NCBI RefSeq assembly: GCF_008831285.2
Contig: NW_022204507.1
Coordinates: 3,511,017-3,575,016 of the forward strand
DNA length: 64,000 nt
Reading direction: 5' to 3'
Origin: Nymphaea colorata
Lineage: Eukaryota; Streptophyta; Magnoliopsida; Nymphaeales; Nymphaeaceae
The position numbers and the translations under genes were made by a program. How positions within the stretch are numbered: position 1 is the stretch's first letter; each line of letters begins with the position of its first letter. Shown piece after piece: positions 32,554-48,383 of the stretch. The notes beneath the pieces are model-generated. The model did not search any database and was not told where the DNA came from. It worked only from the letters and a program-made list of their open reading frames with translations.

Positions 32554-33257
32554 TACAGGAACCTCACACCACTTCAGCACACACTTGACCCACTTGTAGG
32601 GCTATATAGGAGCCGAGTCAAAACTAAGCTCGTTCAGCTTGGCTTGAGCTCGTGTTTAGCAATACAAGGTCAGCTTGAACTCAATTCGATAGACCAAGCC
32701 ACACCTTGAGCATGACTCTTTTATGTCCGCTTACCAACTCCCCATTTGACCTAATTTCTTTTTTGGTTTTAAGCTCTATCACCTGAGTGCGGGGTGTGGG
32801 TGCGGTTGCCGATGCGGGTTTGGGTGCCGGAGCGGCACATTATAAAAAGTTTAAGTGCAGCAGTGCGGTAAGGGTATTTTCTTATATTTATTTTTATTAA
32901 TTTATTATATATATAACAGAATAAGCATGCATATATTATTATTATAATTAAGTTATCAATGTACATAACATGCTTGAATAATTGTATTGCATACTAAAAT
33001 ATCACAACAACATACATTATATAAGTCATTTAGTAATATGGCATTCTAATTGGGCTCCGGTATGAGTTGGAGACGTGCCCATGTCTGGTGCGCAACCGAC
33101 TTGATGTGACTCGGGTGCGGCAGTAAAATAGAAGAGTCCAGGTGACTTAGGTTTTAAGTTTGAAAATTTCAAAAGAACACCTAGCTCATCATCCTTGACC
33201 TCAGCCAGAACCAGTAGCGTAGCCACATTGTGGCTGGTGTGAAATCTTAAATATTTA

Positions 33258-33366
33258 TTGCTTTACATATATATACATATATATATATATATATATACAT
33301 ATATATATATATATCTTTATATATATATATATATATATATATATATATATATATATATATGTATGT
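33258..33366. repeat. (TA)n microsatellite in left arm
   Basis: TA/CATATA run ending GTATGTATGTATCC. The right-arm counterpart at 47470-47512 is much shorter, showing slippage after duplication. Confidence 0.9.
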
Positions 33367-33421
33367 ATGTATCCACCAGATTTGAGTTTGTTTAAACAAG
33401 TGCCCCTCCATTCAATTTCTT

Positions 33422-33900
33422 TTGACTCCGTCGGAGCTCAGCCAACTCTCGAAGGTGGCTAAGCTCGATTTGAGCTTCAACAACATATCTATTGAGACTC
33501 CAGCATCACTGTGGGAGCTAAAGGGCTTGGTCCCATATGGCGGGGTTGGTCAGCCTCGACTTGGCCATACCATCTGGACTCGGTGGGCTTCCCTTGATTC
33601 ACGACCTCGACCCCAGCTACAACCGGCTCAGCAGGCAGGTACCGTTCCAAAAGGAGGTGGTGGATCGGTTGGGCCCCAAGCTGAAGCTCACCGGAAACAA
33701 CGGCCTGTGTCTCAGCTCGGAGATCGTCGGCACCAGTTTGGTCTGGGTGGACGTTCATGGCTGCATCCCTGACAACGTTGCCCAATCGTTGCCCCGTGAT
33801 GGCTCAGCGGTGAGCTCGAGCGGGTCGAGTCTCGGATCGGATTGTTGGTACGGCATGGCTCCGGCCCTGCTGCTGCTAACCTCCTCACGTTATGACACTA
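33422..33900 (+). pseudogene. LRR protein gene fragment, left arm
   Basis: The reading gives [20 protein letters not shown], then after a frame change GLGGLPLIHDLDPSYNRLS, then KLKLTGNNGLCLSSEIVG. These are plant extracellular leucine-rich repeats (LxxLxLxxNxxSxxxP) followed by the GNxGLC cap. Compared with the right-arm copy, a segment of about 75 nt containing one repeat is missing. The fragment resembles plant receptor-like LRR proteins of the PII-2 or RLP type, which sit at the cell surface. No signal peptide, membrane segment or kinase is present, so it is a captured or decayed 3' portion. Confidence 0.7.
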
Positions 33901-34069
33901 GTGTCCTTTTCCACTGCTTTTTCTTATTATCTTTTTGTCTTGCGCAAAGAACATGAACAAAGTGTACATTTTTCGCGTTTTGCGTATACAAGAGGAGTCT
34001 GTTACTTTTCATCTTCAGTTGAGTAATTAGACACAATTTGAGATTCTGTTCGCTTCTTTTGATTATATG

Positions 34070-34191
34070 TTTATATATATATATATGTTTATATATATAT
34101 ATATATATATATATATATATATATATATATATATATATATATATATAGAAAGATAGATAGAGAGAGAGAGAGAGAGAGAGAGAGAGAGAGA
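34070..34191. repeat. (TA)n(GA)n compound microsatellite in left arm
   Basis: A TA run passes into a GA run near 34147. The right-arm counterpart is the reversed order at 46595-46676, with a shortened TC part. Confidence 0.9.
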
Positions 34192-35389
34192 TTGCATATT
34201 AAAGAGGCCAATATAGAGATCTTCCTCGTTCAAAGGGTCTGTTTAATTTAGAGCAGGGGATGGTTTCCCGGACTTGTCCAGATAATAAAAGGATGTTCCG
34301 AGCTACGTGGAATCAGTACCGTCCGACGAAGGAGTTCTGTACTTGATAGACTCCGTTTTGTACTGTTTGTGACCGATTCGGTACACTGAACCATGTTGAA
34401 TACCGAAAGAGGGTTGCTTGAATTGGGAAGGGCGGTTCACCACTATTTTTTTTGTTGCTCATGGGACAACTCTCCGAGTTGTGTGAAAGGTTTTGTCGGT
34501 ATGAACGAACAAAGAAAAAGGGAATTGTAGTCAAACACGGCACCTCTGGGCCCATGGAACCATATGTGGAGTTGGAACATGCTCTCTGCAAATAGTGGGT
34601 ACAGAGGGACCACCGAACTAATCCCCTTCGTCCTCTTTGTTTTGCTTATTGTGGATCTTGGATCTCGGACTGTTTTACTTCGATACGAATGATATGCCTT
34701 ACAACAATGCATGCAATGGCCATCTGACGTGAAATACTCTGTATTATGTGTCCTTGTTTAGAAAATATAAAAAAAATCAAAATTTTATATGTAAATTTTA
34801 AAAATTTTAAAATAACCAATATAAAAAAATATGTAAAATTGTATTTCAAACCCAGTTCGACCCTTGCCTATATACAATTGCAAAAAGCATGCAAGATTAA
34901 TCTTGATACTTCCACTTTCTAATGGCGGTCAAATTTTTTATATTTATCATTTGTAGTGCATCTAATTTCTTCGAGTCTATGCATCACTTTGTTTTGTATT
35001 AATTCGAGATTATACATCTTGTTGACCTAAAGGGAGCTACAATTTCTTGAAAATAATTAATTGGGGAATTAAGCTGGGATTTATGCCTGGTAGAATTTTC
35101 TAGTTGCGTTTTCTTTATTAAGCATGTTTCTTGGAATGATTTTGATACATGATCAGTTGCTTCTGGAAAGGGGGATGTATCAACATGCATATGTTGGTCA
35201 AACTAAGTTAATAGAGAAATTAGTCATTTACATGATTTAGTTAAAAGTTGAGATACATGAATTAAAGGAACTTTTACGAGTTATTTGGCAGTAGGGACGC
35301 TTTATAAGCATCCCATGAATCTACCCAAAAATTGAGGTGGAATCATGTAACAATAATTCAAGGTTCTATATCCTTCCAAATAAGGGTGA

Positions 35390-46594: not shown

Positions 46595-46676
46595 TCTCTC
46601 TCTCTCTATCTTTCTATATATATATATATATATATATATATATATATATATATATATATATATATATATATATATA
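46595..46676. repeat. (TC)n(TA)n compound microsatellite, right arm
   Basis: Mirror counterpart of 34070-34191. Confidence 0.9.
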
Positions 46677-46857
46677 AACATATAATCAAAAGAAGTGAAC
46701 ACAAAATCTCAAATTGTGTCTAATTACTCAACTAAAGATGAAAAGTGAAAACAGACTCCTCTTGTATACTCAAAACGCGAAAAATGTGCACTTTGTTCAT
46801 GTTCTTTACGCAAGACAAAAAGATAATAAGAAAAAGCAGTGGAAAAGGACACCAGTG

Positions 46858-47417
46858 TCATAACGTGAGGAGGTTAGCAGGCTGCAGGGCCAGAGCCACG
46901 CCGTACCAAGAATCCGGTCCGAGATTCGACCCGCTCGAGCTCACCACTGAGCCATCACGGGCCAACGACTGGGCAATGTTGTCAGAGATGCAGCCATCGA
47001 CGTCTACCTTGACCAAGCCGGTGCCGACAATCTCTGAGCCAAGACACAGGCCGTTGTTTCCGGCGAGCTTGAGCTTGGTGCCCAACTGCTCGACCACCTC
47101 CTTCCAGAACGGCACCTGCCCCTCAGCCGGTTGTAGCTGAGGTCGAGGTCATGAATCAAGGGAAGCCCACCGAGTCCAGATGGTGTGGCCCCGGTGAGCC
47201 CGTTGTGGTTTTGGGACAGGTAGGTCTGGTTGCACAGGCGAGCCATAGAAGCCGGGATAGTGCCGACGAGCCAAGTGTATCGAGGCTGACCAAGCCCGCC
47301 ATATGGGTCCAAGCCCTTTAGCTCCCGCGGTGATGCTGGAATCTCAATAGATATGTTGTTGAACCTCAAATCGAGCTTAGTCGCCTTCGAGAGTTGGCTG
47401 AGCTCCGATGGAGCCAA
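46858..47417 (-). pseudogene. LRR protein gene fragment, right arm (fuller copy)
   Basis: The minus strand gives [19 protein letters not shown], then LVGTIPASMARLCNQTYLSQ, then GLGGLPLIHDLDLSYNRLRG. After a frame change it gives KLKLAGNNGLCLGSEIVG. It retains a repeat missing from the left arm (33422-33900). This is the C-terminal part of a plant extracellular LRR protein, without signal peptide, membrane segment or kinase. A frameshift near 47090-47110 separates the repeats from the cap, so it is non-functional. Confidence 0.7.
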
Positions 47418-47469
47418 AAGAAATTGAATGGAGGGGTACTTGTTTAAACAAACTCAAATCTGGTGGACA

Positions 47470-47512
47470 TATACATATATATATATACATATATATATAT
47501 ATGTATATATAT
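47470..47512. repeat. TA-rich microsatellite, right arm
   Basis: CATATATA run, the short counterpart of 33258-33366. Confidence 0.85.
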
Positions 47513-48383
47513 AAAGCAATAAATATTTAATATTTCACACCAGCCACATTGTGGCTACCCTACTGGTTCTCGCTGAGGTCAAGGACGATGAGGTAGGTGT
47601 TCTTTTGAAATTTTGAAACTTAAAAGCTAAGTCACCCGGACTCTTGTATCTTACTACCGCACCTGAGTCACATCGAGTCGGGTGCGCACCGGAGATGGGC
47701 CCGGCTCCAACTCATACCCGAGCCCAATTAGAATGCCATATTACTAAATGACTTATATAATATATGTTGTTGGGATATTTTACTACGCAATACAATTATT
47801 CAAGTATGTTATATACATTGATAACTAAATTATAATAATAATATAAGCATGCTTATTCTGTTATATATATAAAAATTAATAAAAAAATAATAATAAAATA
47901 CCCTTACCACACCGCCGCACTTAAATTTTTTATAATGTGCCACTCCGGCACCCACACCTGCATCGGCAACCGCACCCGCTAGAGCTTAAAACAAAAGAAA
48001 GAAATTAGGTCAAATGGGGGGTTGGTAAGCGAACTAAAAGGAGTCATGCTCGAGGTGTGGCTTGGTCTATCGAATTGAGTTCAAGATGATCTTGTATAGC
48101 TAAACACGAGCTTGAGCCAAGCTGAACGAGCTGAATTTTGACTCGGCTCCTATATAGCCCTACAAGTGGGTCAAGTGTGTGCTGAAGTGGTGTGAGGTTC
48201 CTGTATAGTGAGAGTTCTCACGGCATGAGCAAGTGTTAATGATTCACTTCTTAGTTTTAATATTGACAGCACTCGTATTGAATGTTTCACCCCCATCACT
48301 GTATCATGCTGAATGCTTAAACCCTAGGATGGGTTTTTCTGTCGAAATGAGATCTTTCTCCTAAAAGATGTTCCCTTCATCCA

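Follow-up and report, generated by a model that had tools for sequence, protein, structure and literature searches.

The window analyzed here, a stretch of 64,000 nucleotides (C15:3511017-3575016) from Nymphaea colorata, carries at 32554-48205 a large quasi-palindrome with arms of 7,163 and 7,686 bp that face each other across a spacer of 803 bp. Comparison with related sequences elsewhere in the assembly suggests, with a probability that we put at roughly 0.78, that this structure is an old inverted segmental duplication, now dispersed, decaying and asymmetrically eroded.

Self-BLAST of the window revealed one dominant inverted pair, in which the arms chain as 32554-39716 onto 48205-40520 in four minus-strand blocks (bit scores of 1013, 353, 4466 and 3801), a match far above chance. 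A separate repeat search placed the innermost repeat pair at 39611-39716 and 40520-40625, 803 nt apart, and its edges agree with those of the self-BLAST. In the global alignment of the arms, 6,407 of 6,898 ungapped positions were identical (92.9%), the substitutions comprising 297 transitions and 194 transversions (Kimura two-parameter distance, K2P, of 0.075), and 32 gap events took up 1,053 columns in total. The largest gap corresponds to 583 bp present in the right arm alone (43260-43842), three of the eight gaps of at least 20 bp are located at microsatellites, which are present in the arms, and the longest exact tract common to both arms measures 92 bp. Two long, similar and opposite arms around a short spacer define an inverted segmental duplication, or large quasi-palindrome, and the three methods bear out the palindrome of about 15.65 kb with 7-kb arms and 803-bp spacer that had been described in the initial annotation, as well as its reading as an inverted duplication. 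The sampled identity of 93-95% given there slightly exceeds the value for the whole arm. At substitution rates of 0.7-1.3e-8 per site per year, which we take to apply to plants, the arm divergence would correspond to about 3-5 million years. With the poplar rate of 2.5e-9 quoted in PMC7023750, it would instead correspond to about 15 million years.

Related sequences were searched in the whole assembly (about 408 Mb; 407.8 Mb in 783 contigs) with probes from the spacer, outer arm, inner arm, LINE-like element (long interspersed nuclear element), left flank D and right flank C (Table 1). Many matches were partial, and the copy counts are lower bounds because each probe search scored the best 40 candidates. 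The spacer together with the end of the left arm was found at two further places on C15 (C15b and C15c; 98% identity) and at eight other places with 90-93% identity (C354, C757, C8, three on C11, C13 and C7), where the right arm does not directly follow the spacer. Besides, six loci were identified, including the window, whose two outer ends are oppositely oriented at distances of 15.65-43 kb. The C-side at 14225012 and the LINE-side at 14364041 of C13 form another oppositely oriented pair, which spans 139 kb and was kept outside these six. C15b corresponds to the window region minus 26831-33395, and in two pieces, 8.6 and 6.4 kb long, it is 99.4-99.5% identical to C15c. C15b (L009, L010) and C15c (L011, L012) lie 285 kb apart in opposite orientation, and the pair may reflect either a haplotype effect or an inverted duplication on a larger scale that took place recently around the window. 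Among the matches listed in the open-access literature, nothing was found about this locus.

The evidence for a single origin comes mainly from the phylogeny of the arms, which are named after their outer neighbor as LINE-side (left in the window) or C-side (right). The tree was built from nine arm rows and 5,683 columns, with both arms of four loci (window, C11a, C13 and C8); the two C15b arms were omitted as near copies of the window, and C15c, C757, C354, C11b and C7 were outside the alignment. The C-side arms (window right, C11a, C11c, C13 and C8) grouped in a single clade, separate from the LINE-side arms (window left, C11a, C13 and C8), with support of 100/99, and the same two groups were recovered from the middle segment alone (97/94). 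Pairing of the arms within a locus was rejected by the approximately unbiased (AU) test, with p-AU of 0.0024 for the window, 1.3e-40 for C13, 3.7e-95 for C11 (three rows) and 2.3e-98 for C8. Gene conversion would make arms of the same locus more alike than arms of different loci, and this signature was absent, since arms within a locus differ by 6.8-7.4% (8.7% over 1,444 positions in C15b) and arms of the same side by 4.7-5.7% across C11, C13 and C8, setting aside the C11a/C11c pair (0.6%). Arms of the same side differ from those of the window by 6.5-7.2%. Moreover, 19 of the 20 sites at which the two window arms have opposite type-specific letters agree with the expected assignment, and a further 43 type-specific sites (22 CC and 21 NN) are uninformative in this respect. 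As the closest relatives of each arm type lie across loci, the structure appears to have formed once, with the arms diverging afterwards without homogenizing, and the copies at several loci, judging from these comparisons, descend from a single inverted duplication.

The outer edges of the palindrome are breakpoints in ordinary sequence rather than ends of a mobile element, as indicated by the continuity between arm and flank C and by the single cut in the LINE-like element. The LINE ends at the identical place in all 17 LINE-arm junctions read, of which four have T instead of C as the first arm base and three skip from arm base 20 to a point about 3 kb deeper in the arm. Two other LINE tails (L054 and L055) were read, and both continue unbroken past the breakpoint, with a collinear protein reading that by eye resembles ORF2 (second open reading frame) just before the reverse transcriptase; L055 contains a stop, and the L054 piece had no Pfam match. 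L055 is located at 18.63 Mb of C11, where a D copy precedes it at the usual spacing of 3.3 kb, and this locus looks like the state before the break. The element is called LINE-like on the basis of DUF4283 in its first ORF, which we take to be a marker of plant LINEs; its ORFs at 31344-31805 and 32045-32596 had no Pfam match. The linkage between D and LINE was evaluated in the best 40 of 86 D-probe match rows, with split pieces omitted, and in 25 of 42 LINE-probe match rows (at least 90% identity, two split pieces omitted). Among the D matches of at least 92% identity, 18 of 27 are followed within 20 kb by a LINE of the same strand, at 3.2-3.9 kb in 12 of them (including the window, 3.3 kb), while the D matches below 92% have a LINE downstream in four of 13, one of them at 3.3 kb. 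This linkage across copies indicates that the travelling block included D, LINE, palindrome and C. On the other side, arm and C are contiguous in seven close copies (including the window) and in the seven divergent copies read, and because this continuity holds in both groups it was taken as the older arrangement. Among the junctions read, no transposon end was found at the arm edges, and target-site duplications in differing flanks were absent, with two flank contexts only and TA alone in common.

Some further observations concern the flanks and the outer end of the arms. The last 484 bp of flank C (49622-50105), an AT-rich piece that recurs at 25497-25987, has at least 29 further places with 87-91% identity, and these further copies lack the preceding part of flank C among the matches listed (best 40 candidates). 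At 50105-50106, nine other loci carry about 450-510 bp extra between its two sides, which suggests that a small piece was deleted there in the window. Additionally, a lone 180-bp relative of the outer end of the arms (80%) is located at 15359-15538, where it stops about 24 bp before the arm edge and adjoins D-like sequence.

The original center of the duplication has probably been lost differently in different lineages. The arm end and spacer of the window are collinear with those of C13, C8, C11a, C11c, C757, C354, C11b and C7, which continue into region X. Using the C-side copy of C13 as a ruler (arm at 1-7544, spacer to 8320 and region X to 17251), the LINE-side copy at C7 shows the order 1-385, 1676-1888 and then 7146-12586, that is, into the spacer and X, the LINE-side arms of C8 and C11a have a common jump (5603 to 14343) and continue to 16040, and that of C13 ends at 4241. 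The window, C15b and C15c have a junction in common, from the spacer end (8320) to 7544 of the other arm, and the leftover spacer is part of the left arm alone. The order of the pieces at C7, C8 and C11a suggests, as the simplest reading, that arm, spacer and much of X, at least 16 kb, were originally all contained in the inverted duplicate, and that lineages lost different parts of the center or of one arm. A flip of the center by recombination between the arms was considered at first, given that the neighbor of the spacer is the LINE-side arm in the window and the C-side arm in C11a, C13 and C8, and was dropped as unneeded because the LINE-side copy at C7 also continues into spacer and X; the tree of the inner segment held three groups only, too few to judge such a flip.

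Several observations weigh against this interpretation. The right arm of the window is nearly as distant from the C-side arms (6.9-7.2%) as from the LINE-side arms (6.9-7.4%), so that the arm-type signal of the window itself is weaker than that of the other loci, and one of the 20 opposite-type sites contradicts the expected assignment. The outer segment alone pairs both window arms, weakly (81/80), only short branches (0.0028 and 0.0038) divide the two arm types, and the remote loci contributing both arms to the tree are C11a, C13 and C8 only. Besides, the original center was not found among the loci read, and the order of arm, spacer and X in the C7 copy could be a later rearrangement, given the large deletions in its arm. 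An unrecognized giant element could also have dispersed the block, the ends of which lie beyond the sequence read.

Weighing these points, we still favor an old inverted segmental duplication, for which the following history may be proposed. The stretch formed by region X, spacer, arm and flank C occurs additionally as an inverted duplicate with its outer end fused to a broken LINE, and copies with both flanks are present on several scaffolds. The first event would have been the repair of a break in which LINE and inverted copy became joined by microhomology-mediated end joining or replicative template switching; the three joins inspected have at most a few bases in common, which would agree with either route. 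The block would then have been dispersed by segmental duplication, a route proposed because no transposon ends were found. In the lineage of the window, a deletion from the spacer end across the old center into the other arm would have left the 7-kb arms and the one-sided 803-bp spacer. Long palindromes are unstable, and the central deletions may reflect this instability, so that the present structure would be what a single break repair left behind, amplified together with its neighborhood and then stabilized by loss of its center. It has been reported that longer and more similar arms with shorter spacers pose a higher risk to the genome (PMC7999016), and this rule fits the survival of spaced and diverged copies. 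The structure most likely does nothing specific, and no function is needed to explain it.

A different possibility is that D, LINE, palindrome and C together, tens of kb in all, make up one large mobile or amplified unit, such as a giant Helitron or some non-autonomous derivative of a retroelement, with the palindrome as a passenger. Most of the loci compared diverge by about 5-7%, and the D-LINE spacing is conserved at 12 places, which would suit such a unit. We nevertheless regard it as unlikely: C-like sequence also precedes the left copy of the candidate direct repeats named below (24175-24523 with 49291-49617), many copies are clustered on few scaffolds, and the sequence read stops short of the block ends. 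A giant long terminal repeat (LTR) derivative (LARD) bounded by the direct repeats at 25497-25987 and 49622-50105, the sole candidate pair tested, was rejected since these repeats lack TG...CA ends. An equally slim chance is given to palindrome formation itself having triggered an amplification that spread the neighborhood to several chromosomes, with later loss of the center, separately by lineage, stabilizing the copies. The proposal draws on the inner branches of the arm tree, which, with the recent C11a/C11c pair set aside, measure 0.002-0.009 where the tips measure 0.02-0.04, so that the splits of arm types and loci lie close together, and on the more frequent LINE linkage of the closer D copies.

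It is rather improbable that the palindrome is functional and makes a hairpin RNA that silences related copies, like Mu killer of maize. The 7-kb arms, the exact tracts of up to 92 bp and the many homologous genomic sequences would suit this role, and read-through transcripts could fold into hairpins feeding small interfering RNAs; however, the arms are about 7% apart without homogenization and the gene fragments are weak. Mu killer, like the structure described here, is an inverted duplication produced by rearrangement and was proposed to make hairpin RNA, but it derives from the MuDR transposon and silences MuDR, and the same report gives results against a simple read-through model (PMC3440606). 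The palindrome of the window, in contrast, is not known to have any activity.

A giant foldback or terminal-inverted-repeat (TIR) DNA transposon with 7-kb TIRs and a variable interior, as raised in the initial annotation, appears very improbable. It would account for the six loci with inverted ends at differing distances (Table 1) and for the sharp arm edge at 32554, common to C11a, C11c and C13, but the right arm edge continues into homologous sequence in close and divergent copies alike, the left edge is a single LINE breakpoint, the junctions read show just two flank contexts, each in many copies, and D, LINE and C move with the palindrome, the edges having TA alone in common. Foldback/FARE and Mutator-type elements, as we understand them, are likewise built with long inverted ends; in contrast to them, no target-site duplication, transposase or free terminus was found in the junctions and ORFs read from this palindrome. 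The 23 arm and nine interior ORFs of the copies read contained no transposase; non-autonomous elements need none.

Least credible of all is an assembly artefact joining two haplotypes or paralogues head to head, also considered in the initial annotation, for even if this is the PacBio assembly of Nymphaea colorata, in which 49.8 Gb in 5.5 million reads gives about 9 kb per read, less than 15.65 kb (PMC7015852), the inner junction occurs at three places on C15 (at 98% identity in the two beyond the window), the outer junction at 17 places read, the arm types are consistent across loci, with the window arms matching different arms at three other loci, and the sole run of N in the window (11736-11835, a scaffold gap of 100 N) leaves the palindrome entirely to one side, with no gap in or near it, and nothing points to a misjoin.

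The content of the arms was screened in all 23 ORFs of at least 100 amino acids, of which two had leucine-rich repeat (LRR) matches and the remainder stayed below any Pfam cut-off. The LRR fragment that had been annotated is present in both arms, its match lying above the cut-off in the right arm and below it in the left, and the 'PRLI-like' fragment annotated alongside could not be placed. No transposase match was found among the 23 ORFs, nor among the nine interior ORFs of at least 110 amino acids from C13, C8 and C11a, and in C13 and C8 no interior ORF of this length had a Pfam match above the cut-off. A weak match to a viral glycoprotein in 44104-44514, below the cut-off, was judged to be chance, and the tRNA and Rfam scans returned no matches. 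Regarding the neighborhood, the region 12471-29298 is a mosaic of direct duplications that are 76-88% alike (e.g., 12875-14166 with 18310-19546 and 17229-18499 with 28034-29298), and pieces of 20618-25987 are duplicated in 48384-50105 within the same range, indicating that the region was built from older repeated units. Pieces of a Gypsy-type retrotransposon with gag and reverse-transcriptase matches are present at 58204-61029, and 52681-52994 is a degenerate tandem array whose units measure about 18, 32, 87 and 143 bp.

Table 1. Features of the palindrome and its flanks (window coordinates) and loci whose two outer ends are oppositely oriented
Feature	Position	Strand	Size or span	Remarks
Left flank D	26000..29298	+		Part of the block common to other LINE-side loci; probe 26000-28000
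LINE-like element	29323..32553	+		Cut within second ORF; 5' limit approximate; DUF4283 in first ORF, E 9.6e-19
Outer left breakpoint	32552..32555	.		LINE fused to arm; 2 bp (TA) common to both partners; 17 junctions
Left (LINE-side) arm	32554..39716	+	7,163 bp	Repeat search, self-BLAST and alignment; groups with LINE-side arms of C11a, C13 and C8
LRR counterpart, left arm	~33386-33769			LRR_8, E 0.042, below Pfam cut-off
Spacer	39717..40519	+	803 bp	Extends left arm alone; right-side counterpart absent; collinear with 8 other loci
Inner deletion junction	40518..40526	.		Spacer end to right arm; clear microhomology slight or absent; junction common to C15b and C15c
Right (C-side) arm	40520..48205	-	7,686 bp	Inverted relative to left arm; groups with C-side arms of C11a, C11c, C13 and C8
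LRR gene fragment, right arm	47007..47453	-		Pfam LRR_1, E 2.6e-5, above Pfam cut-off
Right flank C	48206..50105	+		Older neighbor of arm; contiguous with arm in copies; C adjoins arms elsewhere too
Two-ended locus, window			15.65 kb	Read in whole or large part
Two-ended locus, C11a	C11 21.58 Mb		18.97 kb	Read in whole or large part
Two-ended locus, C13	C13 15.76 Mb		21.5 kb	Read in whole or large part
Two-ended locus, C12	C12 13.75 Mb (13.75-13.77 Mb)		23.1 kb	Read at one edge only
Two-ended locus, C8	C8 12.33 Mb		32.0 kb	Read in whole or large part
Two-ended locus, C8	C8 0.25 Mb (0.246-0.289 Mb)		43.0 kb	Read at one edge only

Large palindromes, their birth and their loss are already known from other systems (PMC7023750; PMC6790999). 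The palindromes W.P1 and W.P2 on the W chromosome of the willow Salix purpurea are likewise inverted duplicates in plant DNA, and in W.P1 a spacer a few kb long separates arms of about 20 kb; the four common willow arms were reported to be on average more than 99% identical, with evidence of gene conversion, and to carry genes, and a further W.P2 pair to be 96-99% identical (PMC7023750). In contrast, the arms of the window are about 7% apart, show no homogenization in the tree and carry a gene fragment only. Variants of the human Y palindrome P8 document birth, expansion and death, with the loss of nearly a whole arm among the steps (PMC6790999), which resembles the arm losses proposed here for other loci; P8, however, concerns variation at one locus in one species, and the present family would consist of dispersed copies of one old event.

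What seems less usual here is that a single event can be recognized at several dispersed loci of a plant, which afterwards underwent losses separately and without homogenization. Palindromes of intermediate age offer a chance to observe decay, and since one event seemingly survives at six or more loci with different deletions, its birth, dispersal and asymmetric loss may be ordered from sequence alone. These loci are candidates for long hairpin RNA, and the system may serve as a natural test of how a long inverted duplication decays in a plant genome.

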